Source: an uncultured Pseudomonadota bacterium (GTDB taxonomy: Bacteria > Myxococcota_A > Bradymonadia > Bradymonadales > GCA-2716585). Taken from it: a stretch of DNA of 32,490 nucleotides. The stretch is taken from positions 1 to 32,490 of the forward strand of contig CALBXO010000739.1 in assembly GCA_937890335.1 (NCBI GenBank), in the 5' to 3' direction. The position numbers and the translations under genes were made by a program. Under the pieces are notes generated by a model. That model was not told where the DNA came from, did no database searches, and saw nothing but the letters and a program-made list of their open reading frames with translations. Below are positions 22,650 through 32,490 of the stretch, one piece after another; the first letter of the stretch is position 1; the number at the start of each line of letters is the position of its first letter.

Positions 22650-24179
22650 TCAACGAGGGGACCAGCCGCCTCCGCCAGGCGTATGAATCTCCAGGACATC
22701 TCCCGCGGCCACCTGCAGACGCACCTTGCCGGGCAGCTGGGTGACCTCGCCTGCGCGCCTGAGCAGGTTTGAACCCGGCTGCCCATCGCCGCCGCCCAGC
22801 CCCCAAGGTCCCCGGCGCCGACGCTCGGTGAGCAGTGTCACCTCGGCCGGCACGTCAAACGCATACACCCGTACAAGGCCGTCACCGCCGGTGTGGACAC
22901 CGCTTCCGCCGCTGCCATCGCGGATGCGGTAGGCGAGCACCCTGAACGGGTACGCGTGCTCCAAGGCCTCCACGGGTGTGTTGAGCGTATTGGTCATGTG
23001 GGTGTGGACGGCGCTGCCGCCGGGCCCGTCGGGGCCACCGCCAGCGCCGCCGGCGAGCGTCTCGTAGTAGGCGAAGCCTTCGCCGCCGATGGTCACGTTG
23101 TTCATGGAGCCGCAAGAGGCTGCGGGGACCCGGTCGGGCAGCACCTGGGCCAGCGCCCCGAACACGCAATCCGTGATGCGCTGACTCGTCTCTACATTGC
23201 CTGCCGCCACGGCGGAAGGATATCGCGCGTCCACGACAGAACCCGGCTCAGTCACGACCGTCACGGGGCGCATGGCCCCAGAATTGGCCGGGATGTCGTC
23301 GCCCAGAACGCAGCGAAGGGCGTAGGTCACCGCGGAGACCGTGATTGCCCGCACCGCGTTGACAGACCCCTGGACCGCGCCACTGCTCCCGGAGAAATCG
23401 ACGAGCGCCTCGTCGCCGCGGATGCTCAGCGTGCAATGGATTGGGATGTCCACAGCGCCAAATCCGTCATCGTCCAGGAAGTCCTGAAAGCTCCAGGACC
23501 CGTCCGGAAGCCGCCCCAACGCCGCCCGGACCCGCCGCTCGCTATAATCCTGAAGGCCGGTCGCCTGCGCGCCGACCTCCGCCAGGCCGCGCCTGTGGCA
23601 CATCGCGGTCAGCCGCTCGATTCCGAGGCGCGCCGCAGCAACCTGCGCCCGCAGATCGCCCCGCCGCTCGTCGGGCGTGCGCGAGGCGTCGCAGATTCGC
23701 TGCACGAGCTGGTCGTTCAGCACCGTGGGCGGAACTCGTATCCCCTCCTCGTCGATGTGCGTGCTCATGGGCATGGACCCAGGGCTGATGCCTCCCACGT
23801 CCGCGTGGTGCGCCCGGTTGGCCACGTAGAATTGAGGACGCCGCTGCCCCGGCAGCAGACACGGGGCCACCACAGTGATGTCCGGCAGGTGGGTGCCACC
23901 CTGGTACGGATCGTTGAGCAGGACCATCTCGCCCGTGGCCAATGCCTCCGGGCAGGCAGCGATGGCCGCCGCGACCGACATGGGGGTCGAGCCGAGGTGC
24001 ACAGGGATGTGGGCCGCCTGGGCGATCATGGAGCCCTCGGCGTCGAAGACGGCACAGGAGAAGTCCAGCCGCTCCTTGATGTTGGGCGAGAACGCAGAGC
24101 GCATGAGGCGGACGCCCATCTCCTCGGCGCAGGCGGCGAAGAGGTGCCGGTAGATCTCGAGCTCCACCCCCAGACTCAT
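22650..24179 (-). CDS. hyuB: Hydantoinase/oxoprolinase B subunit
   Basis: A 509-residue protein of the HyuB family, the partner of HyuA in ATP-dependent hydrolysis of hydantoins, 5-oxoproline or related cyclic amides; the acetone carboxylase subunits are relatives. Typical features are the opening (ELEIYRHLFAACAEEMG, then MRSAFSPNIKERLDFSCAVFD), HxGSTPMSV, VLLNDPYQGGTHLPDI, NRAHHADVGG, and the Gly-rich C-terminus ending in TPGGGGW. The frame runs upstream to 24323, but ATG 24177-24179 overlaps the hyuA stop as ATGA, has GGGAGA six bases upstream, and matches the family N-terminus. Cytoplasmic, no signal peptide. The substrate cannot be told from sequence. Confidence 0.88.
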   Translation of the reverse strand: MSLGVELEIYRHLFAACAEEMGVRLMRSAFSPNIKERLDFSCAVFDAEGSMIAQAAHIPVHLGSTPMSVAAAIAACPEALATGEMVLLNDPYQGGTHLPDITVVAPCLLPGQRRPQFYVANRAHHADVGGISPGSMPMSTHIDEEGIRVPPTVLNDQLVQRICDASRTPDERRGDLRAQVAAARLGIERLTAMCHRRGLAEVGAQATGLQDYSERRVRAALGRLPDGSWSFQDFLDDDGFGAVDIPIHCTLSIRGDEALVDFSGSSGAVQGSVNAVRAITVSAVTYALRCVLGDDIPANSGAMRPVTVVTEPGSVVDARYPSAVAAGNVETSQRITDCVFGALAQVLPDRVPAASCGSMNNVTIGGEGFAYYETLAGGAGGGPDGPGGSAVHTHMTNTLNTPVEALEHAYPFRVLAYRIRDGSGGSGVHTGGDGLVRVYAFDVPAEVTLLTERRRRGPWGLGGGDGQPGSNLLRRAGEVTQLPGKVRLQVAAGDVLEIHTPGGGGWSPR

Positions 24180-26149
24180 GACGGATCTCCCGCGGGCGCA
24201 GACCCGCCAGCACGAAGCACCACGCTCCCGCCCTGGACCACTTCTGCGCTCCAACCCTCGGGTACCCAGGTGGTGGAGGAGTACTCTGTGATCAGCGCCG
24301 GCCCCGCGCCTGAGGCGCCCCACGCAAGGTCCGCCCGGACCACGGTGCCGTCGATGCGCGTGCGTGTTCCAGAGGGCGCCGTGAACGGGGGTACAGCCCG
24401 GCGCCCTTCGGCGCGCAGGCGGACGGCGACGAGCTCCACGGTCCGCTCCGTACGGTACCCATAGAGCCGTTCGTGCAGGGCCGCGAAGCGCTCCAGAACG
24501 GTGGTGGTTCCGGCGCTGGGGTCCGCGTCAATCTCGAGTTCATGGGACTGGCCGGCGTACCGGAGGTCGCACGTCCAGGAAAGGATGCGCGAGGTCGCGT
24601 CGAACCCTTGCGCAGCCAGGCGGCGCTGCGCAGCTTCGGCCAGCTCCGGGGGCAGCGGCAGGGCGTCGAGAGGCCCCAGCGGCGCCAACACCGCGCGCGA
24701 TTGGGTATAGACCGCGGGCGCGAACTGCATTCCCACCGCGGACAGCAGCCCCGGATCGGGAGGAACCAGGACGGTGCGGACCCCGAGCTCCGCCGCCAGG
24801 CTGCACGCGTGCAGGCCGCCCGCGCCTCCAAAGGTCACCAGGGCAAAGTCGCGCGGGTCGTGCCCCTGCTCCACGGAGATGACCTTGAGAGCGCGCGCCA
24901 TCGTGGCTTCCGCGACCCGGACGATCCCGTGGGCCGTGTCCCGCAGGGAGGCGCCGAGGCGCTCTGCCACCCGCGCGACCGCCTGGGCAGCGGCTTGGGC
25001 GTCCAGCAGCATGCCGCCCCCGAGGAACGCGTCCGGGACCAGGCGCCCCAGCACGACGTTGGCGTCGGTCACCGTCGCCCGCTGACCACCGCGGCCATAG
25101 CACGCTGGCCCCGGCTGCGCCCCCGCCGACTCCGGACCCACCCGTAGCGCGCCGCCACCATCCACCCAGGCAATGGAACCGCCCCCGGCCCCCACGGTGT
25201 GAATGTCCAGCGTCGGGACGCGAATGGGCAGCCCTGCGATCTCGGCGCCGCGGGAGATGCTGGGCGCGCCGTCGCACAGCGACACGTCCGTGCTCGTGCC
25301 TCCCATGTCGAAGGTCAGCAGGCGGTCCATGCCGGCCGCGCGGCCTGCGGCCATGGCCCCGACGACGCCTCCTGCCGGTCCCGACAACACGGTATGCACC
25401 GGCTGAGCCACGGTCTCCTCGGCGGTGAGACTGCCGCCCGCCGAGGACATGATGCGCAGTCCGTCACCGAGCTCCCGGCGCAACCGGTCAATGTAGGCGC
25501 CCATGCGAGGCGCGACGACCGCGTTGGCGACAGTGGTCGCCGCCCGCTCATACTCGCGAAACTCCGGCAGAAGATCGGAGCTCACCGTGATGTGCAACCG
25601 CGGAAATCGGGCGCGGATCGCATCAGCCACTGCGCGCTCGTGGGCTGGGTTCGCGTAGCTATGCAGCAGACTGACGGCGACCGCCTCCACATCGCCCAGA
25701 CCGTCGAACAAACCATCGAGGTCGGCAATGGCTTGCACGACGTCACCGTGGCACCCCATGCGTTCCCGCACTCCGAAGCACGCGCCCCGCTGCACCGGTG
25801 GTTGTCGTCGGGTGGCCACCTGCGCGTACAGCCGCGGCCGATTCTGCCGAGCGATGTGCAGCGTGTCTTCGAACCCCGCCGTGGTCACGAACGCGACCTT
25901 TCCTCCGCGCCCTTCCAACAACGCGTTCGTCGCGACTGTGGACCCGTGGATAACCGTGGGAACACCGGGCGTTTCCAGCTGGTGCAGAGCGGCCGCGATC
26001 CCGTCCAGCACGGCCCGAGACGGATCGTCGGGCGTGGAGGGCAGCTTGTGCGTGATCACCTGATCGCCGCGCCGAAGCACCACGTCCGTGAAGGTCCCGC
26101 CCGTATCCACGGCAACGGTCACCCCAGGTTCTTTGGTCGATTCGCTCAT
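24176..26149 (-). CDS. hyuA: Hydantoinase/oxoprolinase A subunit (ASKHA ATPase)
   Basis: A 657-residue ATP-binding subunit of the HyuA/5-oxoprolinase family, forming a complex with the HyuB encoded next. Motifs in order are VAVDTGGTFTDVV (phosphate loop of the acetate-kinase/actin fold, residues 12-24), STVATNALLEG, NAVVAPRMGAYI, LSGPAGGVVGA, TFDMGGTSTDVSL, and GGAGGLHAC. ATG 26147-26149 places the DTGGT motif at the usual distance from the N-terminus; a TTG at 26170 is possible but has no ribosome site. The ATG also lacks a clear Shine-Dalgarno. Substrate may be N-methylhydantoin, hydantoin or 5-oxoproline. It is divergent from the small secreted protein gene, with a dyad between them. Confidence 0.88.
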   Translation of the reverse strand: MSESTKEPGVTVAVDTGGTFTDVVLRRGDQVITHKLPSTPDDPSRAVLDGIAAALHQLETPGVPTVIHGSTVATNALLEGRGGKVAFVTTAGFEDTLHIARQNRPRLYAQVATRRQPPVQRGACFGVRERMGCHGDVVQAIADLDGLFDGLGDVEAVAVSLLHSYANPAHERAVADAIRARFPRLHITVSSDLLPEFREYERAATTVANAVVAPRMGAYIDRLRRELGDGLRIMSSAGGSLTAEETVAQPVHTVLSGPAGGVVGAMAAGRAAGMDRLLTFDMGGTSTDVSLCDGAPSISRGAEIAGLPIRVPTLDIHTVGAGGGSIAWVDGGGALRVGPESAGAQPGPACYGRGGQRATVTDANVVLGRLVPDAFLGGGMLLDAQAAAQAVARVAERLGASLRDTAHGIVRVAEATMARALKVISVEQGHDPRDFALVTFGGAGGLHACSLAAELGVRTVLVPPDPGLLSAVGMQFAPAVYTQSRAVLAPLGPLDALPLPPELAEAAQRRLAAQGFDATSRILSWTCDLRYAGQSHELEIDADPSAGTTTVLERFAALHERLYGYRTERTVELVAVRLRAEGRRAVPPFTAPSGTRTRIDGTVVRADLAWGASGAGPALITEYSSTTWVPEGWSAEVVQGGSVVLRAGGSAPAGDPS

Positions 26150-26314
26150 TTGTTGTTGCGGCCCGGGCAAAGCGGCGTAGAATCTGGATTCTTTCGCACG
26201 AACTCTAACTTTTCCGCGCCCTGGTTTGTCAGGGGATCAGACCATGAGCTGTACGCGGAGCCAGGCGTATCCACAAGGCCGCACAAGGCCGTTTACCACC
26301 CAGAAGGGGGAGTT
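26150..26314. promoter_or_regulatory. Divergent intergenic region with promoter-like boxes, dyad and tandem repeat
   Basis: On the minus strand CTGACA (26227-26232) and TAGAGT (26202-26207), spacer 19, could drive hyuA. The palindrome AGAATC-TG-GATTCT (26179-26192) would then lie just downstream of the start of transcription, a repressor-like position. Toward the plus-strand gene, CACAAGGCCG is repeated in tandem at 26272-26281 and 26282-26291, about 24 bases before its start codon. Function is inferred only from position. Confidence 0.4.
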
Positions 26315-26731
26315 ATGAAGATGTTCCGTTTGGCCGTCATGGCGCTCGTCGCGCTCGGCCTTTGTCTGACCGGTCTCAGTTCCGTTTCCGCCCAGGACAG
26401 CCAGCCTGCGGCCGAGAAGCCGGACAAGAAGAAGAAGAAGAAGGCAGCCATCAAGACGCCGTGCAAGGTCGCCAAACACATCGCGACCAAGAATGGCGAC
26501 GAGAAGTTCCTCGGCAAGCTGTCAGAGTGGCGCGAGAAGGCCCAGTCCGCGGACAAACCCAAGAAGAAGGCCAAGGCGCGTCACGCGGCCCGCAAGGCGT
26601 GTCGCAAATACATCCGCGCGCACCGCAAGGCCAAGAAGGGCGACGAGGAGACCGCCTCGGATGAGGAGGCCGACGTTGCCGACGACGAGGGAGCCGCCGA
26701 GCTCGACGAGGGCGAGGAAGAAGGCGAGTAG
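26315..26731 (+). CDS. Small secreted protein with basic Lys-rich body and acidic tail
   Basis: A 138-residue protein of no family I recognise. Residues 1-26 are a clear signal peptide (MKMFRLAVMALVALGLCLTG, cleavage near VSA-Q). The mature part has a run of six Lys (38-43), two Cys (C50, C96) bracketing a helical, strongly basic region, and from 109 to the end an Asp/Glu-rich tail with no Lys or Arg. Mature charge is therefore segregated: basic body, acidic end. ATG 26315-26317 follows GGGGGAG closely. Upstream in-frame codons overlap hyuA and are not part of it. It could bind anionic envelope polymers or nucleic acids; this is speculation. It converges on the membrane protein gene at 26756. 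Confidence 0.7.
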   Translation: MKMFRLAVMALVALGLCLTGLSSVSAQDSQPAAEKPDKKKKKKAAIKTPCKVAKHIATKNGDEKFLGKLSEWREKAQSADKPKKKAKARHAARKACRKYIRAHRKAKKGDEETASDEEADVADDEGAAELDEGEEEGE

Positions 26732-26739
26732 ACCGCGCA

Positions 26740-26773
26740 GCCGACGCCCCCGGTATCACGGCGAGGCGTCGGC
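26740..26773. terminator. Shared hairpin between convergent genes
   Basis: GCCGACGCC (26740-26748) pairs with GGCGTCGGC (26765-26773), a perfect 9-bp stem with a 16-base loop. It spans the 24-base gap between two convergent stops, and one arm lies in the last codons of the minus-strand gene. No T-run is present. Confidence 0.45.
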
Positions 26774-27760
26774 GCCCTCCGGGCCCACCTGCCCCACATC
26801 CGCTGCGTTCTGCCCGACATCCGGGCCCACCAGCGTCGCATCCGGCGTCGCGGGGACCGCATCTGCAGCCGGCAGCTCCTCGGCCTCGTCTACCTCGGTG
26901 CGGATGTCTCGAATCAGCCAGGCACCACCGTCGCTCTTGCGAAGCCCGTAGACCACAGAGCCACGCGTCTTGAACTTCCGCAGATCCATGACATCCACCT
27001 TGGCCTCCGCCGTGGTGCCGTCGCTGTCCAGTGCCCGAATGCGCGCCTGGGCCTCGGGGCCAAACAGGTCCCCCTGCGAGTTGATGTAGGCCTCAAAGGT
27101 GCCGCGGTCCATCTTGCTTGTGAACTCGGGGTCCATCAGCTCCCACGCACCCTCAAAGTCCTGCTGTCCCAGACGGCGCAGGTGTTTCTGCACCACGACG
27201 CTGATCTCCCGCTCCTCCTGAAGCTCCTCCGGCTCGCCGACAAACAGGTCGTCAATGACCGGGATGGGGTCGCCACGCTCGTTCGTCTTTCCCGTCTGCC
27301 TCACGAGGAAAGTCGCCGTTCCCTTCTTGCTTTGCTTGTCGCCACCGACGATCAGCACGCTGAGGTAGACGCGCCGCTTGCCGTTTCTCGACAGCGTCCG
27401 GCTGCCCACCACGCGGGCGGTGCCACCGTCAAAGAGTGGAGAATGCTGCGCGATGAAGGCGTCGAACTCCGCCTGTGAATGGCTTTGTCGGTAGGTGTCG
27501 CTGAGGCTAAGATAGGCGCGCTGCGTGTCACCCGCGCCCACGGAATCGAGCAGGGTCTGCACTGGCATGACCATGGCGGCGTGCTGCTCCTCGATTCGGT
27601 TGCAGCAGCTGCCGACGCCCGAGCAGACGCCCCATGTCGAGAGCGCCGCAAGCGCCACGATGACCACCAGACAGCCGCCGCCCCCCAGGAGCAGAATCTT
27701 GCCCCAGGACCGCTCGCCGCCGCTGTCGTCTACCCAGTCACTCGGTGCACCAACACCCAT
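26756..27760 (-). CDS. Single-pass membrane protein with two NTF2-like (DUF4864-like) repeats
   Basis: A 334-residue protein with one transmembrane helix (residues ~21-44, ILLLGGGGCLVVIVALAAL) and a cluster of Cys just after it (SGVGSCCNR). The outer part has two similar alpha+beta segments, ~55-165 (PVQTLLDSVGAGDTQRAYLSLSDTYRQ) and ~180-295 (VVVQKHLRRLGQQDFEGAWELMDPEF). Each opens with a helix, a G-D/Q-x-x-x-A-Y/W motif and 'F-x-A-x-I' patterns, as in NTF2-like or DUF4864 proteins. The tail is an Ala/Pro/Asp-rich low-complexity stretch. Its ATG lies six bases after the preceding stop, with GGTGAGGGG before it, so it is probably translationally coupled as the last gene of the parA operon. Function unknown. 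Confidence 0.7.
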   Translation of the reverse strand: MGVGAPSDWVDDSGGERSWGKILLLGGGGCLVVIVALAALSTWGVCSGVGSCCNRIEEQHAAMVMPVQTLLDSVGAGDTQRAYLSLSDTYRQSHSQAEFDAFIAQHSPLFDGGTARVVGSRTLSRNGKRRVYLSVLIVGGDKQSKKGTATFLVRQTGKTNERGDPIPVIDDLFVGEPEELQEEREISVVVQKHLRRLGQQDFEGAWELMDPEFTSKMDRGTFEAYINSQGDLFGPEAQARIRALDSDGTTAEAKVDVMDLRKFKTRGSVVYGLRKSDGGAWLIRDIRTEVDEAEELPAADAVPATPDATLVGPDVGQNAADVGQVGPEGADASP

Positions 27761-27766
27761 CGCCCC

Positions 27767-28486
27767 TCACCGCGTCCCGGCGCCGCAGACCCGCACGTCC
27801 GGGCCCCGGGTGACTGACACAACCCGCGCAACCTCCGCGGTGTGCAGAGCGCCATCCAGGCTGTAGCCCGTCCCTGCCAGGTCGAAAGTCAGCCGCCTGC
27901 TCACACCCACACGGTGCGAGGGCATCTGCTTGCCGCGCACCAGCGCGAACGCATGGGACAACAACCGTCCGGCGTCCAGATTGTTCCACAGAAAGCAGAA
28001 CTCGCCCGGACCCGGCGGCGCGGGCGCCTTCATCTTCATCGGAAAGCGCTGGCTCACCGACGCGCCCGCCAGGGTGAGCTCTTCCGCGATCACATGGCCG
28101 TCAACGACCACTGTGGCGGCCACCGGCGCGACAGCGCCGCGGAGGGCGCGAAGGCCGCCAGCGCGGCTGTGGTCTGCGGCGTGAAAGAATGCACCGAGCC
28201 CCAGCGAAAACCCATACTGTCGCTCCGCAAGGCCACTGTCGCAGACGACGAGCGTCGCAGAAGAGGCCGGGGTTGGTGGCTTCTTGATGAGCCGGGCGTC
28301 CTGCTTGGGGTCGCCGGTGAGCGGCAGAATCGCAGCAGACAAGCCTTCGCGCACGACGCGCCGGATCACCGCCGAGAGGCGATCGGCGTCGACGGCGATG
28401 ATGTCAAAACGAGTGAGGTCCGCGTCGACGGCGACGGGCGTCGCCCCGTGCGCAGGTCCGCGGGAGACGACAGCTACGGAAGGCAT
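27767..28486 (-). CDS. Divergent diacylglycerol-kinase-like (DAGK/YegS fold) protein with degenerate active site
   Basis: A 239-residue protein. The C-terminal half resembles the beta domain of bacterial lipid kinases: FSLGLGAFFHAAD, then a 'VVVDGHVI' strand, and finally GTGYSLDGALH and VTRGPDVRVC, equivalent to the usual 'DGE ... GPALRV' ending. The N-terminal half is short. Where kinases have GGDGT it reads AVDAD (31-35), and where they have P-L-G-T-x-N-D-F-A-R it reads PLTGDPKQDAR (55-65). ATP binding or catalysis is therefore doubtful. ATG 28484-28486 follows the upstream stop by four bases; an extension to 28555 would overlap that gene. The family call is by eye and could be wrong. It may act as a lipid-binding or regulatory pseudo-enzyme in the operon. 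Confidence 0.55.
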   Translation of the reverse strand: MPSVAVVSRGPAHGATPVAVDADLTRFDIIAVDADRLSAVIRRVVREGLSAAILPLTGDPKQDARLIKKPPTPASSATLVVCDSGLAERQYGFSLGLGAFFHAADHSRAGGLRALRGAVAPVAATVVVDGHVIAEELTLAGASVSQRFPMKMKAPAPPGPGEFCFLWNNLDAGRLLSHAFALVRGKQMPSHRVGVSRRLTFDLAGTGYSLDGALHTAEVARVVSVTRGPDVRVCGAGTR

Positions 28487-28490
28487 GGGA

Positions 28491-30029
28491 TCAGAATCTG
28501 GGTTCTGGCTTGAGGACGACCTTGCCGTCGCGCACGACCACGCTGAAGCGGACATCCCTGGCCTCGTGCTTGCGCATGAGGACTGCCGTGTTCTCGGTGA
28601 GCTTCGAGATGAACTTGTCGTAGGTCAAGTCGTCCACGCCCAGGCCGAGGTTTCGGCGGGCGGCCACGTACTCGTCGAAGATACGGCGGCGGTACTCTTG
28701 CTGCGGCTCCTCGGGCTCCTCGTTGGCGCCCGACATTGGGACCCCCGTAACCATGGGCCCGGTGGCGCGAATCATCGCGGTTCGGCTGACCTCGTCGAAC
28801 TCGAAGCCCCAGCCGCTGGCCGAGACCTCGTCGTCCTCCTCGTCCGGCATGCGTTTGCCCTGGAGGAATGCGCTCATCAAATTGAGCGATTGCGCCATCT
28901 CGGTCTGGAACGCGTGGTTTCCGCTGACCTGGAACTCGTAGTCCTTGTTCCCGGCGATGACCTCCTGGATGCCCTGATCAATCTCCTCAAACGCCTTCAC
29001 GAATGAGCGGATGACGATGAGGACGGCGCCGAGCAGAATGATGAGGATGATGGGACCCACTACGAAGATGGAGGTTTTTATCTTCTGCACTGTGGCCAGG
29101 CGCTCGGTCATATTGCTGAGCACCACGAACCCGGTCTTCTTGTCGGCACCCCGCGTGCTGCTGAAGTAGCGCACGGCGACAAGGTACTCGGCGCCGTCGT
29201 GTGAGATCGTGAACGAGGGCGGCGTCGCGCCGCCGGCCAGTTTGTCCTTTCCGCCCTCAAAGATCGCGCGGCTCAGTGACTCATCGTTCTTGAGGGTGGA
29301 GGCGAAGATCTTCCCGTTGTGGAAGTAGGCCACGTCACCGCCGCCGATGTGCTCCGCGGCCGTCTGCGCCGAGCCACCCGCGATGAGCGATCCTACGACC
29401 ACCACACCGATGAGCTTCTCCGGCCCCTGCATCACTGGCGCGATGCCGACGTGGTACCAGGCCGCCGAGTCGCTGTCGGTCACCGTCCAGCGGAAGTACC
29501 AGATGCCCTCCCGCGGGACCCCGTCCTTGACGGCGAGCATGTCCGGATGCCGGGCCCCCACATCGTCTTTGTACCAGTCGTATTTGTTGGTCCCGAGCGC
29601 AGCGACGCCGATGCCCTTCTCGTCGGCGACGAACACGAGCTCGGGGTTGTAGGGTGGCCGCTCATGGATCATCGCGTCCACGGGTCGGGCGTCGCCCTTC
29701 TCCGCGGCGAGATTCTCAAACGCGTACTTCCACCGCAGGATGCCCTTCTCGTGGACACCGAGGTGCCGGTGGTACTCGTACGGGTCGTTGTACTCGGCCG
29801 TGAGCGCTGACTGGAGCCCACGGAAAGCCGCGATTCGCTCCGCCTTGGCGGTGACGCCAAAGTCGTTGAGCCTCTCGTATCGCTCCATGCTCCGGGCCGC
29901 GACTCCGAGCTGGCCGCGGGCCTCGCTTCGAATGTCGTTCTCCAGAGATTGGGGGAGCATCATGTACACCGCCGTCATCACCATGACGACGATGAGCGTC
30001 AGCATCGCGCATATCTTGATTCGCAGCAT
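28491..30029 (-). CDS. Two-TM sensor-like membrane protein with C-terminal domain of the MXAN_5187 type
   Basis: A 512-residue protein. TM1 is ~8-27 and TM2 is ~319-341. Between them is a ~290-residue periplasmic region that looks like a double-CACHE sensor (VFVADEKGIGVAALG, WYHVGIAPVM, IGVVVVGSLIAGG, AYFHNGKIFAST). A HAMP-like linker follows (343-395). The C-terminal part (~440-512: YVAARRNLGLGVDDLTYDKF, then VRFSVVVRDGKVVLKPEP) resembles a domain I remember from the M. xanthus MXAN_5187 family; that name is recollection. No kinase, GGDEF or methyl-accepting domain is present, so output must go through this C-terminal domain or a partner. The ATG is preceded by GAGG. The next gene follows after four bases. 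Confidence 0.7.
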   Translation of the reverse strand: MLRIKICAMLTLIVVMVMTAVYMMLPQSLENDIRSEARGQLGVAARSMERYERLNDFGVTAKAERIAAFRGLQSALTAEYNDPYEYHRHLGVHEKGILRWKYAFENLAAEKGDARPVDAMIHERPPYNPELVFVADEKGIGVAALGTNKYDWYKDDVGARHPDMLAVKDGVPREGIWYFRWTVTDSDSAAWYHVGIAPVMQGPEKLIGVVVVGSLIAGGSAQTAAEHIGGGDVAYFHNGKIFASTLKNDESLSRAIFEGGKDKLAGGATPPSFTISHDGAEYLVAVRYFSSTRGADKKTGFVVLSNMTERLATVQKIKTSIFVVGPIILIILLGAVLIVIRSFVKAFEEIDQGIQEVIAGNKDYEFQVSGNHAFQTEMAQSLNLMSAFLQGKRMPDEEDDEVSASGWGFEFDEVSRTAMIRATGPMVTGVPMSGANEEPEEPQQEYRRRIFDEYVAARRNLGLGVDDLTYDKFISKLTENTAVLMRKHEARDVRFSVVVRDGKVVLKPEPRF

Positions 30030-30132
30030 CGTGCCTCAGACTCGTTGAAGTACCGCCAGTCTCATCGGCAATTGGCGTGTGCGCAATGACTTTTTTGAAA
30101 CGCGCACGCGAATTGAAACCGAGAAACGGTCG

Positions 30133-30459
30133 TCAGTACTGCCGCGGCAGCTTGTCGATGTCGCAGGTGTCGATGGCGAACCGTATCAACGCTGACCGGT
30201 TCATCTTCGTCTGCCCGCGACGCTTGAGCTCTTTGACCAACGAGTCGATCCGCTCGATGTCCTCGTTGTAGAGGGAAATGCTCACGACACGGTAGTGGGT
30301 CGGCTTCTCCTTGGGCGCCTTGGTAGGCCCACCGACCAGCAGGTCCGACTGCCCGAGCGGCGCCGGCCGAAAGAAATTCTGCATCACCTCGTCATCGCTG
30401 GCGAGGGGATCGTCTCCCATGGCTCTGTCTTCGTCCTGGTGTGCCATCATCCCGCTCAC
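30133..30459 (-). CDS. Ribbon-helix-helix-like protein, partner of the ParA ATPase
   Basis: A 108-residue protein. The first ~50 residues are acidic and probably disordered. Residues 57-101 fit a ribbon-helix-helix fold: strand RVVSISLYN, helix NEDIERIDSLVKELKRRG, turn TKMNRS, helix SALIRFAIDTC. The GTG start at 30457-30459 overlaps the parA stop as GTGA, so the two are translationally coupled; ATG 30448-30450 or 30445-30447 are alternatives. A ParA gene followed by a small RHH gene is the arrangement of ParA/ParG-type (type Ib) partition cassettes, where the RHH protein binds the operator-centromere and its floppy N-terminus stimulates the ATPase. That role is inferred from fold and position. 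Confidence 0.7.
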   Translation of the reverse strand: MSGMMAHQDEDRAMGDDPLASDDEVMQNFFRPAPLGQSDLLVGGPTKAPKEKPTHYRVVSISLYNEDIERIDSLVKELKRRGQTKMNRSALIRFAIDTCDIDKLPRQY

Positions 30460-31586
30460 GCTACGACCCGTTGTTGCTTCTCATCGCTGGCCACGACCCA
30501 ATCCACGAGCTTGCGGTAGTCGGTCGCCCCGTGGCTGTCGTCCGCGTACTCGAAAATCGACATCTTGTGACTCGGTGCTTCCTTGAGTTTGGTGTTGACC
30601 CGAATCGGCGGTAGCACCTTGTCCTTGAAATACCCGCGCAGCGTGCTGACCGACTCGTGGCTGATGCGATTTCGCCGGTCGTAGAACGTCGGCAGGATCC
30701 CCATGATCCGGACCGGGTGGAGCAGCTGCTGGTTCACGTTCTTGAGCGTGCGCAGGATCTGCTTCACGCCCACGAGGCTCAGAAAGTCGCAGCCCACCGG
30801 AACGATGAGCTCGTCCGCGTAGGTCAGGGCGTTCATGTTGAGCAGCGACAGGCTCGGACCGCAGTCCAGGATGATGTAGTCGTAGTCATCAAACGCCTCC
30901 ATGCGCGATTTCAGGACACGCTCGCGGCCCTCGTTCATCCGCGCGAGGAAGATCTCCGCCGACGCCAGCGTCTCGTTGGAGGTGATGAGGTCCAGGTTCT
31001 CGCGCATGGGGATGACAACATCTCCAGGCGGCACACCCTCGACGATGAGGTGGTAGAGGGAGTACTTGCCTTTGACGCCCATGCTCACGCCGACGTGCCC
31101 CTGGGCATCCATGTCGATGACCAGGGTGCGCATGCCTGCGGCCGCCAACCCCGCGGACAGGTTCACGCTCGTGGTGGTCTTTCCGGTGCCGCCCTTCTGG
31201 TTGAGGATGGCGATCTTCCGTGGACCGCGTCGCGCCCGGTGCACCCGCTGCTCCAGGTCCCGCAGCACGGGCTGCCGGCACTTCATGGAGCAGAAGTATT
31301 CAACCCGCGGGCCTACGGTCACCTGCTGGAACGCATAGCGCAGCTCGAACGCGTCGCCGCAGCAACGGCAGGCAACCTTGCCCTCCTCTGCTTTTGGCGC
31401 CGGCTGCTCGGCGGAAACCTCGGCCTCTGGCTGGGGCTCCGGGGCCGCCTGCACGCGAAACTGGAGTTGGCAGCGCTGGGTGCAGAAATAGCGTACGACC
31501 CCGCTGGGGTCGCGCTGCACTTGAAAGCTGAATTTGACGTCGAAGCGCCGACCACAGACGTGGCAGCCCTGTAGAGCGATGGTCAT
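30456..31586 (-). CDS. ParA-family ATPase with two N-terminal zinc fingers
   Basis: A 376-residue protein. Residues 1-110 hold two similar zinc-finger-like modules: C8-x2-C11 ... C35-x3-C39 and C73-x2-C76 ... C99-x3-C103, each with a YFC-x3-C second half, joined by a Pro/Glu/Ala linker. The deviant-Walker ATPase follows: KGGTGKTT (131-138, signature Lys131 and Lys136), LVIDMDAQG (Walker A'), YIILDCGPS (Walker B) and a closing helix. Chromosomal ParA proteins lack such fingers; they may bind DNA or a protein anchor. It may position a cargo such as a plasmid, the chromosome or a protein cluster. ATG 31584-31586 has GAGGGA five bases upstream. The next gene overlaps it, and a ParB with a parS site was not seen in the window. 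Confidence 0.88.
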   Translation of the reverse strand: MTIALQGCHVCGRRFDVKFSFQVQRDPSGVVRYFCTQRCQLQFRVQAAPEPQPEAEVSAEQPAPKAEEGKVACRCCGDAFELRYAFQQVTVGPRVEYFCSMKCRQPVLRDLEQRVHRARRGPRKIAILNQKGGTGKTTTSVNLSAGLAAAGMRTLVIDMDAQGHVGVSMGVKGKYSLYHLIVEGVPPGDVVIPMRENLDLITSNETLASAEIFLARMNEGRERVLKSRMEAFDDYDYIILDCGPSLSLLNMNALTYADELIVPVGCDFLSLVGVKQILRTLKNVNQQLLHPVRIMGILPTFYDRRNRISHESVSTLRGYFKDKVLPPIRVNTKLKEAPSHKMSIFEYADDSHGATDYRKLVDWVVASDEKQQRVVA

Positions 31587-31649: not shown

Positions 31650-31679
31650 ACCCTAGCGGGGTCCGAGGCGACAGGTCAA
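31650..31679 (-). promoter_or_regulatory. Sigma-70-type promoter for the parA operon
   Basis: On the minus strand TTGACC (31674-31679) and TAGGGT (31650-31655) are separated by 18 bases. TAnnnT is a common -10 form in GC-rich bacteria. Transcription would begin near 31643, leaving about 57 bases to the ATG at 31586. Confidence 0.5.
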
Positions 31680-31842
31680 GGAGAGAAGTACCCGATCATG
31701 GGTGTACCGTGCAAAACGAAGTTGGCAACTTCTTTGGCCGGCAATCTCGGCACAGCCAACTTCACGCATTTGTCGGTGGACCCCATCGGTCGCCGGGCAC
31801 GCGCGCGCACGGCCGACGGCTCCGACAACAACGGGCCAACGT

Positions 31843-31860: not shown

Positions 31861-32421
31861 TCACGGCTCCTGGCGCGGCAGGGGCACCTTCATCGCGCGG
31901 GCCAACGCGCTCAGCTGCGACTCCAGGTCGCAATCAAGCGTGCCCGCCTCCGTGTCGATACTGACGGCGTTTTTCGGCCGGGTGGGGTCCGCGACGAACA
32001 CGACGGCGCCGCCCGCTGCAGCCTCGATCCGCGCCCGCCGGTCCACCAGGACATCCAGGCTCGCCGGATGAACTCGAAGCAGCAGCTGGTGCCGGCCGCG
32101 CAGAGTCCCAATCGCGTGGCAGACCATCTGCGCCAGGGTCTCAGGGGCGACGGTCAGCTCCCGTCCGACAATGCGGCGCGCCAGGCCAAGCGCCAGAGAC
32201 GCCAGCTCTTCTTCGGCGGCGGTCAGGACGCCCTCCCGCTCCGCGCGCGCCGCGCGCAGCACCACCGCAGCCTCCGCGACACCCCGCGCAAAGCCTTCTG
32301 CGCGCGCCGCCTCCCGCAGCCGCAGAAGATCCGCCTCGTGCACCGCAACCTGAGGGGCCTCCTCGAGCGGGCGAACGTCCAGCTCCGCCGTGTTGGCGGC
32401 ACGTACCAGTCGAAGTGTCAT
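31861..32421 (-). CDS. FliH/SctL-type stator of a type III secretion or flagellar ATPase
   Basis: A 186-residue cytoplasmic protein of the FliH/YscL/SctL family, which links the secretion ATPase (SctN/FliI) to the sorting platform (SctQ/FliN). Residues ~25-85 are an Ala/Arg/Glu-rich helix (LLRLREAARAEGFARGVAEA). The C-terminal domain shows LALGLARRIVGREL, ETLAQMVCHAI, LLLRVHPASLDVL and NAVSIDTEAGTLDCDLESQL, closely following the usual pattern of 'R-V-H-P-x-D' and 'G-x-C-x-I/L-x-T-x-x-G-x-I-D'. ATG 32419-32421 overlaps the stop of the preceding frame as ATGA. The same frame stays open to the window edge, so a longer start cannot be excluded. It seems to be the last gene of its operon. Confidence 0.75.
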   Translation of the reverse strand: MTLRLVRAANTAELDVRPLEEAPQVAVHEADLLRLREAARAEGFARGVAEAAVVLRAARAEREGVLTAAEEELASLALGLARRIVGRELTVAPETLAQMVCHAIGTLRGRHQLLLRVHPASLDVLVDRRARIEAAAGGAVVFVADPTRPKNAVSIDTEAGTLDCDLESQLSALARAMKVPLPRQEP

Positions 32422-32490
32422 GGCTGATCTTGGCTCCAGGCCCACTCTATCCAGCCCGCCGCTGCCTCGACGCACGGCGGTGCCGCGGCC
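32418..32490 (-). CDS. C-terminal end of an upstream gene (partial; possibly SctK-like)
   Basis: In the frame offset from the SctL-like gene, 23 codons are open from the window edge to a TGA at 32418-32420 that overlaps the next ATG (ATGA). The visible end is WIEWAWSQDQP. In Yersinia-type loci yscK precedes yscL, so this may be the end of an SctK-like protein. Too little is visible to assign it with confidence. Confidence 0.4.
   Translation of the reverse strand, partial: AAAPPCVEAAAGWIEWAWSQDQP

Follow-up and report, generated by a model that had tools for sequence, protein, structure and literature searches.

We analysed a stretch of 32,490 nucleotides (referred to throughout as the window) from an uncultured bacterium that GTDB places in the Myxococcota_A (contig CALBXO010000739.1). 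The window carries five open reading frames (ORFs), all on the minus strand between positions 26756 and 31586, which encode in order a ParA ATPase with N-terminal zinc ribbons (Zn-ParA), a small adaptor of the ribbon-helix-helix (RHH) type, a membrane receptor-like protein, a lipid-kinase-like protein (LK) and an NTF2-like membrane protein (Table 1). Searches covering several hundred genomes show that the cluster consists of layers of differing conservation and is not one conserved five-gene system: the links of ParA to the RHH gene and to the receptor gene are conserved, while the five-gene unit is private to the window genome. ParA-family ATPases position cargos of DNA or protein in bacteria, and for many of them no partner is known (PMC10241942). 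We give about an even chance to the reading that the locus holds a chromosomal ParA/RHH-adaptor positioning module similar to the type Ib partition systems, which in the lineage of the window, a Bradymonadales-like branch, has been joined to a membrane CACHE sensor. This reading is favoured because the catalytic set of the ParA is complete, the basic positions of Soj are kept, the gene is single-copy and distinct from the ParA-ParB system, and an RHH partner lies downstream.

A Zn-ParA was matched, as a single-copy gene, in 62 of the 190 Myxococcota genomes sampled and in 60 of the 176 good ones. The loci were found by scanning with a C-terminal ParA stretch specific to the family, as the zinc-ribbon alignment was too variable for this purpose, and a single-sequence scan of GTDB contigs with the receptor returned no relative. 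A total of 80 named loci were fetched, among them one of Lujinxingia vulgaris and others from assemblies that carry the labels Nannocystis exedens, Labilithrix, Sorangium cellulosum and Sandaracinus. The adjacency set contained 82 loci after removal of duplicates, each of them reaching at least 600 bp beyond ParA on the downstream side. Counted on these loci, which come from fragmented assemblies and in which related genomes are not independent events, an RHH gene lies within 500 bp downstream of ParA in 56 and a receptor gene within 1.8 kb downstream in 22; five loci have both and nine have neither.

The families are referred to here by the analysis labels f1 to f4, where f1 is the family of the window and f2 its sister; f3 and f4 are represented by few relatives. 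The gene order ParA-RHH-receptor was observed in f1 and f4, and adjacency of ParA and receptor in f1, f2 and f4. None of the 21 f2 genomes gives a match to the RHH profile, and in f2 the adjacency of ParA and receptor persists; that this linkage outlives the loss of RHH was counted in favour of receptor coupling. An earlier note on this DNA had taken the five genes as a single unit, which is not borne out as all five are contiguous in the window genome only. Adjacency in this genome alone, which the note had named as refuting its proposal, applies to the full set and not to the ParA-RHH-sensor core; ParA and RHH are neighbours across much of the Myxococcota. The coupling of a ParA/RHH pair to a membrane sensor, also proposed in that note, is thus supported by conserved gene order, whereas control of ParA placement by the sensor would be a further step.

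The deviant Walker motif set of the window ParA is complete (NQKGGTGKT, DMDAQG and ILDCGPSL), the Walker residues are invariant in an alignment of 15 homologues, and the nearest solved structures are Soj/ParA proteins. Position 333 holds arginine or lysine in all 15 orthologues, R305 varies hardly at all among them, and both align with positions of Thermus Soj that count among its DNA-binding arginines. Surface arginines have been reported to mediate the non-specific DNA binding of Soj (PMC9178275). The zinc finger noted earlier in this protein proved to be two ribbons of the form C-x2-C...C-x3-C. The first of them is kept in f1, f2, f3 and beyond and is absent in f4, and one or two ribbons are detectable in 78 of the 82 loci. 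The arrangement of a canonical ParABS system was not found at the window locus, as the ParB_N domain sits on another contig of the same genome (C897), in a ParB encoded beside a canonical ParA. Zn-ParA is therefore a separate ParA system. The window ParA shares 40% identity with the canonical ParA of its own genome and 52% or more with each Zn-ParA orthologue.

The adaptor family scores below the Pfam cut-off for RHH_1, yet the match occurs in 9 of 17 members, and the AlphaFold model of the window adaptor shows an extended segment followed by helices at residues 65-80 and 88-98 with pLDDT values of 93-98. The adaptor probably carries an RHH domain, in line with the earlier note. Its N-terminal motif consists of acidic residues, then a hydrophobic position, then an aromatic pair (for example LDxDEVxxVLSGAFY), and is joined to the RHH domain by a basic, proline- and alanine-rich linker with a median length of 22 residues. 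The motif pattern was found in 55 of 58 RHH proteins, the other three being near-matches, and in 1.9% of composition-shuffled sequences; the pattern was written after the sequences had been read, and the shuffle figure expresses compositional rarity and not an independent test of discovery. When we checked for an arginine finger, a basic residue was present within 12 residues before the motif in 51 of the 55 adaptors, the motif itself being acidic and aromatic. As judged from the sequences compared, the motif is a new conserved peptide. Partner proteins of ParA have been described as touching the ATPase through a charged, disordered N-terminus (PMC10241942), and the N-terminus of this adaptor may also contact ParA; its motif occupies the corresponding position, with an unusual composition.

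The receptor has transmembrane (TM) peaks at residues 1-27 and 316-348, and its AlphaFold model has a mean pLDDT of 80. The CACHE-like sensor of the earlier note was confirmed as a fold on this predicted structure, where the predicted periplasmic domain gave Foldseek matches to Tlp3, McpB and DctB (E 8e-9 to 1e-6), all of them dCACHE sensor structures; an orthologue exceeds the Pfam cut-off for sCache_3_2. A Pfam scan of the receptor and this orthologue found neither the signalling hairpin of methyl-accepting chemotaxis proteins (MCPs) nor a kinase output domain. Scans for the C-terminal domain, NF041621, detected it in receptors of f1 and f3 but in none of the f2 and f4 orthologues that were scanned. 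Over its full length the receptor scores 75 bits against the MXAN_5187 family NF041620, below the cut-off of 200, and a literature search found no paper on MXAN_5187. Searches of the receptor, RHH and LK profiles against PDB sequences gave nothing useful. Elsewhere in the same genome, a protein (L002, G000:C138) combines a TM segment and a HAMP-like helix with a C-terminal match to the last 80 residues of the receptor. At L055:8468-9562 the receptor N-terminus (83 residues) is fused to penicillin-binding-protein-like sequence at a contig end, which is probably an assembly chimera.

Table 1. Annotated features of the Zn-ParA locus, in positions of the window.
Feature	Position	Strand	Basis or description
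Inverted ACTTC/GAAGT repeats, possible operator	31715..31763		Upstream of promoter; weak, not conserved across genomes
Promoter-like site TTGACC-18-TAGGGT	31650..31679	-	Read directly, 64 bp upstream of parA
ParA ATPase, 376 aa	30456..31586	-	Pfam AAA_31 2e-48; two N-terminal zinc ribbons
Zinc ribbon 1 of ParA, residues 8-39, C-x2-C ... C-x3-C	31470..31565	-	Alignment
Zinc ribbon 2 of ParA, residues 73-104	31275..31370	-	C73, C76, C99 and C103 invariant (alignments A1, A2)
RHH-type adaptor (RHH probable), 108 aa	30133..30459	-	N-terminal motif, basic Pro/Ala-rich linker, beta-alpha-alpha domain
Adaptor N-terminal motif, residues 12-32, RAMGDDPLASDDEVMQNFFRP	30364..30426	-	Pattern count and short predicted helix 22-29
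Membrane receptor-like protein, 512 aa	28491..30029	-	TM1, periplasmic dCACHE, TM2, HAMP-like helix, disordered linker, MXAN_5187_C
MXAN_5187 C-terminal domain, residues 443-512, alpha-alpha-beta-beta	28494..28703	-	NCBIfam NF041621 1.2e-22, 80 bits against a cut-off of 30
Degenerate diacylglycerol/lipid kinase homologue (LK), 239 aa	27767..28486	-	Profile-profile match, GGDGT lost
Membrane-anchored NTF2/DUF4864-like protein, 334 aa	26756..27760	-	Pfam DUF4864 25.2 bits against a cut-off of 27.1; TM at about 18-50

The ORFs, their strand and their intergenic gaps of -4, 103, 4 and 6 bp (from parA towards NTF2) were identical on re-reading to those listed in the earlier note. RHH starts with GTG, and its GTGA overlaps the parA stop codon, which makes the first gap negative. 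The promoter-like site upstream of parA was found in all four f1 genomes examined (the window, L051, L052 and L056) with an identical 18-bp spacing and similar hexamers. The consensus scanner reported neither a promoter nor a terminator in the 103-bp gap, although under its strict rule the site upstream of parA went unreported as well; a stem-loop in this gap is modest (z -2.3). Candidates for a shared operator were rejected: the upstream enrichment of GAGCTCGA and AGTACTTC is largely confined to one close clade, and that of ACTTC is only 2-fold overall.

This region bears on the main rival explanation, namely that ParA and RHH form a pair of transcriptional regulators in which RHH is an autorepressor or local regulator, ParA a co-regulator of the FleN type and the receptor a co-regulated target. 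RHH proteins are commonly repressors, and the gene belongs to an operon that has a conserved promoter and inverted repeats close by. However, no conserved operator was found, ParA is retained in f2 where RHH has been lost, and this ParA, which is closest to Soj rather than to FleN, keeps the Soj-type DNA-binding positions together with every catalytic residue. We therefore regard a regulator pair as unlikely, although it deserves more weight than the other rivals.

The type Ib systems (ParF-ParG of TP228 and delta-omega of pSM19035) resemble the window module in that a gene for a small RHH-type partner lies beside that of a ParA-family ATPase, and possibly also in a flexible partner N-terminus ahead of the RHH domain. 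The window locus shares with them the complete deviant Walker motifs and a partner in the same operon with a C-terminal beta-alpha-alpha domain, probably RHH. Type Ib ATPases have no N-terminal domain, whereas Zn-ParA carries its ribbons; upstream of the operon we found no direct repeats of the kind expected of a type Ib centromere, and the few inverted repeats are not conserved. The module was not filed as type Ib because it departs from the class in these two features, the N-terminal domain and the upstream repeats. It differs further in being chromosomal and single-copy, in the acidic and aromatic motif of its partner, and in being joined to a membrane receptor.

The same comparison allows for a domesticated type Ib partition cassette of a plasmid or mobile element with neighbours acquired by chance, since a ParA followed by an RHH gene is the type Ib layout (PMC5016525). 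This origin seems improbable. The gene is present as a single copy in 60 of the 176 good genomes, its linkage to the receptor is conserved in three families, zinc ribbons are not known from type Ib ATPases, and Zn-ParA had no match at 1e-50 among 72,556 plasmid records.

Other described systems share single features with the module. The archaeal SegA-SegB system is likewise a chromosomal ParA-like ATPase with an RHH partner (PMC9178275), and is set apart by its description, SegA having neither zinc ribbons nor a receptor partner as far as described. In the positioning of Vibrio chemosensory arrays by ParC-ParP, a ParA-family ATPase is linked to receptor proteins (PMC5706961); the window receptor has a CACHE domain and a HAMP-like helix without the MCP signalling domain, and no CheW- or CheA-like partner was seen in the operon. 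Chemoreceptors have the same periplasmic CACHE-type sensor between two TM helices, together with the hairpin that is absent here. The Myxococcota proteins with the MXAN_5187 C-terminal domain share NF041621 with the receptor, the N-terminal part being that of a different protein. A literature search found no paper on a zinc-ribbon ParA with RHH.

For the positioning module we infer nucleoid binding, adaptor contact, a cargo, receptor docking and ligand control. ATP-bound ParA dimers would coat the nucleoid. The RHH protein would hold on to a site on the DNA, or to its own operator, while its N-terminal motif would touch ParA and stimulate ATP hydrolysis, and the complex bearing RHH would thereby move or be spaced in the manner of type Ib partition. 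An extra docking face on ParA would come from the zinc ribbons. In the lineage of the window the receptor would bind the module through its cytoplasmic tail, serving as cargo to be positioned or as an anchor in the membrane through which its ligand state would tune ParA. In f2, where RHH is gone, the receptor would be the sole remaining partner of ParA. The pseudo-lipid-kinase and NTF2-like genes would be operon passengers or lineage-specific modifiers.

Several observations weigh against a positioning module with a coupled receptor. A search upstream of the operon for an operator or centromere array found no conserved one, the RHH assignment lies under the Pfam cut-off, and Foldseek gave no match for the short adaptor model. 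With its acidic and aromatic residues, the adaptor motif departs from the basic N-terminus that ParA partners usually have (PMC10241942), and in f3 the receptor gene lies apart from ParA-RHH, showing that receptor coupling is not universal. Moreover, what has been observed of the module comes from sequences and predicted structures.

More tentatively, and with well below an even chance, we suggest a signal-gated ParA, in which the CACHE receptor partners or anchors Zn-ParA and an external ligand would set the envelope site of the ParA/RHH complex, and perhaps of a chromosomal site; in the Bradymonadaceae-like genomes without RHH, the receptor would have replaced the DNA-binding adaptor.

The last two genes of the cluster belong to its least conserved layer. 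An hhalign comparison of three LK proteins with 24 diacylglycerol kinase proteins from relatives gave a probability of 96.8 (E 3e-10, 280 columns), and its reversed control was negative with 0.1; Pfam and NCBIfam gave no kinase match. The match to kinases of the YegS/DgkB type runs from end to end without the GGDGT and PxGTGND-type motifs, and the position of GGDGT reads VDADR in the window and GADAG and GGDAG in relatives. LK is probably not a kinase because these motifs have been lost, and pseudo lipid kinase, as it was called before, is a fair name. The TM segment of the NTF2-like membrane protein was recovered, with the DUF4864 score just under the cut-off.

A single pathway of five genes, with LK and NTF2 acting together with ParA, RHH and the receptor, is given very little probability. 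It is suggested by the short distances between the last three genes of the window (4 and 6 bp) and by the receptor-LK junction in a second genome (G004), where a 24-bp overlap of contig ends indicates the same adjacency. On the other hand, LK was matched in only three of 58 genomes, all in f1; in G002 some 3.3 kb separate it from the receptor gene, and an ORF on the opposite strand comes after the receptor gene in G001. NTF2 is adjacent to the ParA locus in the window genome only, being distant or on another contig in the relatives seen. The role that the earlier note gave to LK and NTF2 in the mechanism is not supported by these distributions.

On its other side, the parA operon of f1 adjoins a type III secretion-like locus (window 31861-32475 on the minus strand, L052:667-1461 and L056:8664-10417), of which a FliH/SctL-like gene is directly upstream of parA in the window. 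In G002 a FliH/SctL-like match and a secretion-ATPase-like ORF, the latter identified by eye, lie several kb from parA, and G004 has an SctJ-like ORF (by eye) in the parA region. Outside f1, the receptor gene is followed by genes for a NamZ exo-muramidase, a nucleotidyltransferase-like protein, a DUF2520 protein and a Clp-like ATPase, a conserved block seen at L061-L064, L057-L058 and L060, or the neighbours are unrelated. That the module positions the neighbouring secretion-like apparatus in f1 is, in spite of the genes near parA there, very unlikely, as it does not track secretion genes given these different neighbours outside f1.

Further ORFs were observed around the locus. Beside NTF2 in the window lies an ORF of 138 residues (26315-26731, plus strand) whose start resembles a signal peptide, whose middle is rich in lysine and whose tail is strongly acidic, and beyond it two ORFs resembling, by eye, the hydantoinase/oxoprolinase subunits HyuB and HyuA (22650-26170, minus strand). 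A HyuA-like ORF is also found near the NTF2 gene in G004. Upstream of parA at L052:2328-4481 and L056:2218-4263, an ORF was judged by eye to resemble a fusion of chorismate mutase, prephenate dehydratase and DAHP synthase.

Zn-ParA carries zinc ribbons and is linked to an adaptor with a new conserved peptide, and in one lineage the next gene encodes a sensory membrane protein. Since Zn-ParA occurs in Lujinxingia vulgaris, which has been cultured, and in assemblies that carry the labels Nannocystis and Sorangium, its partner and cargo are open to direct tests.

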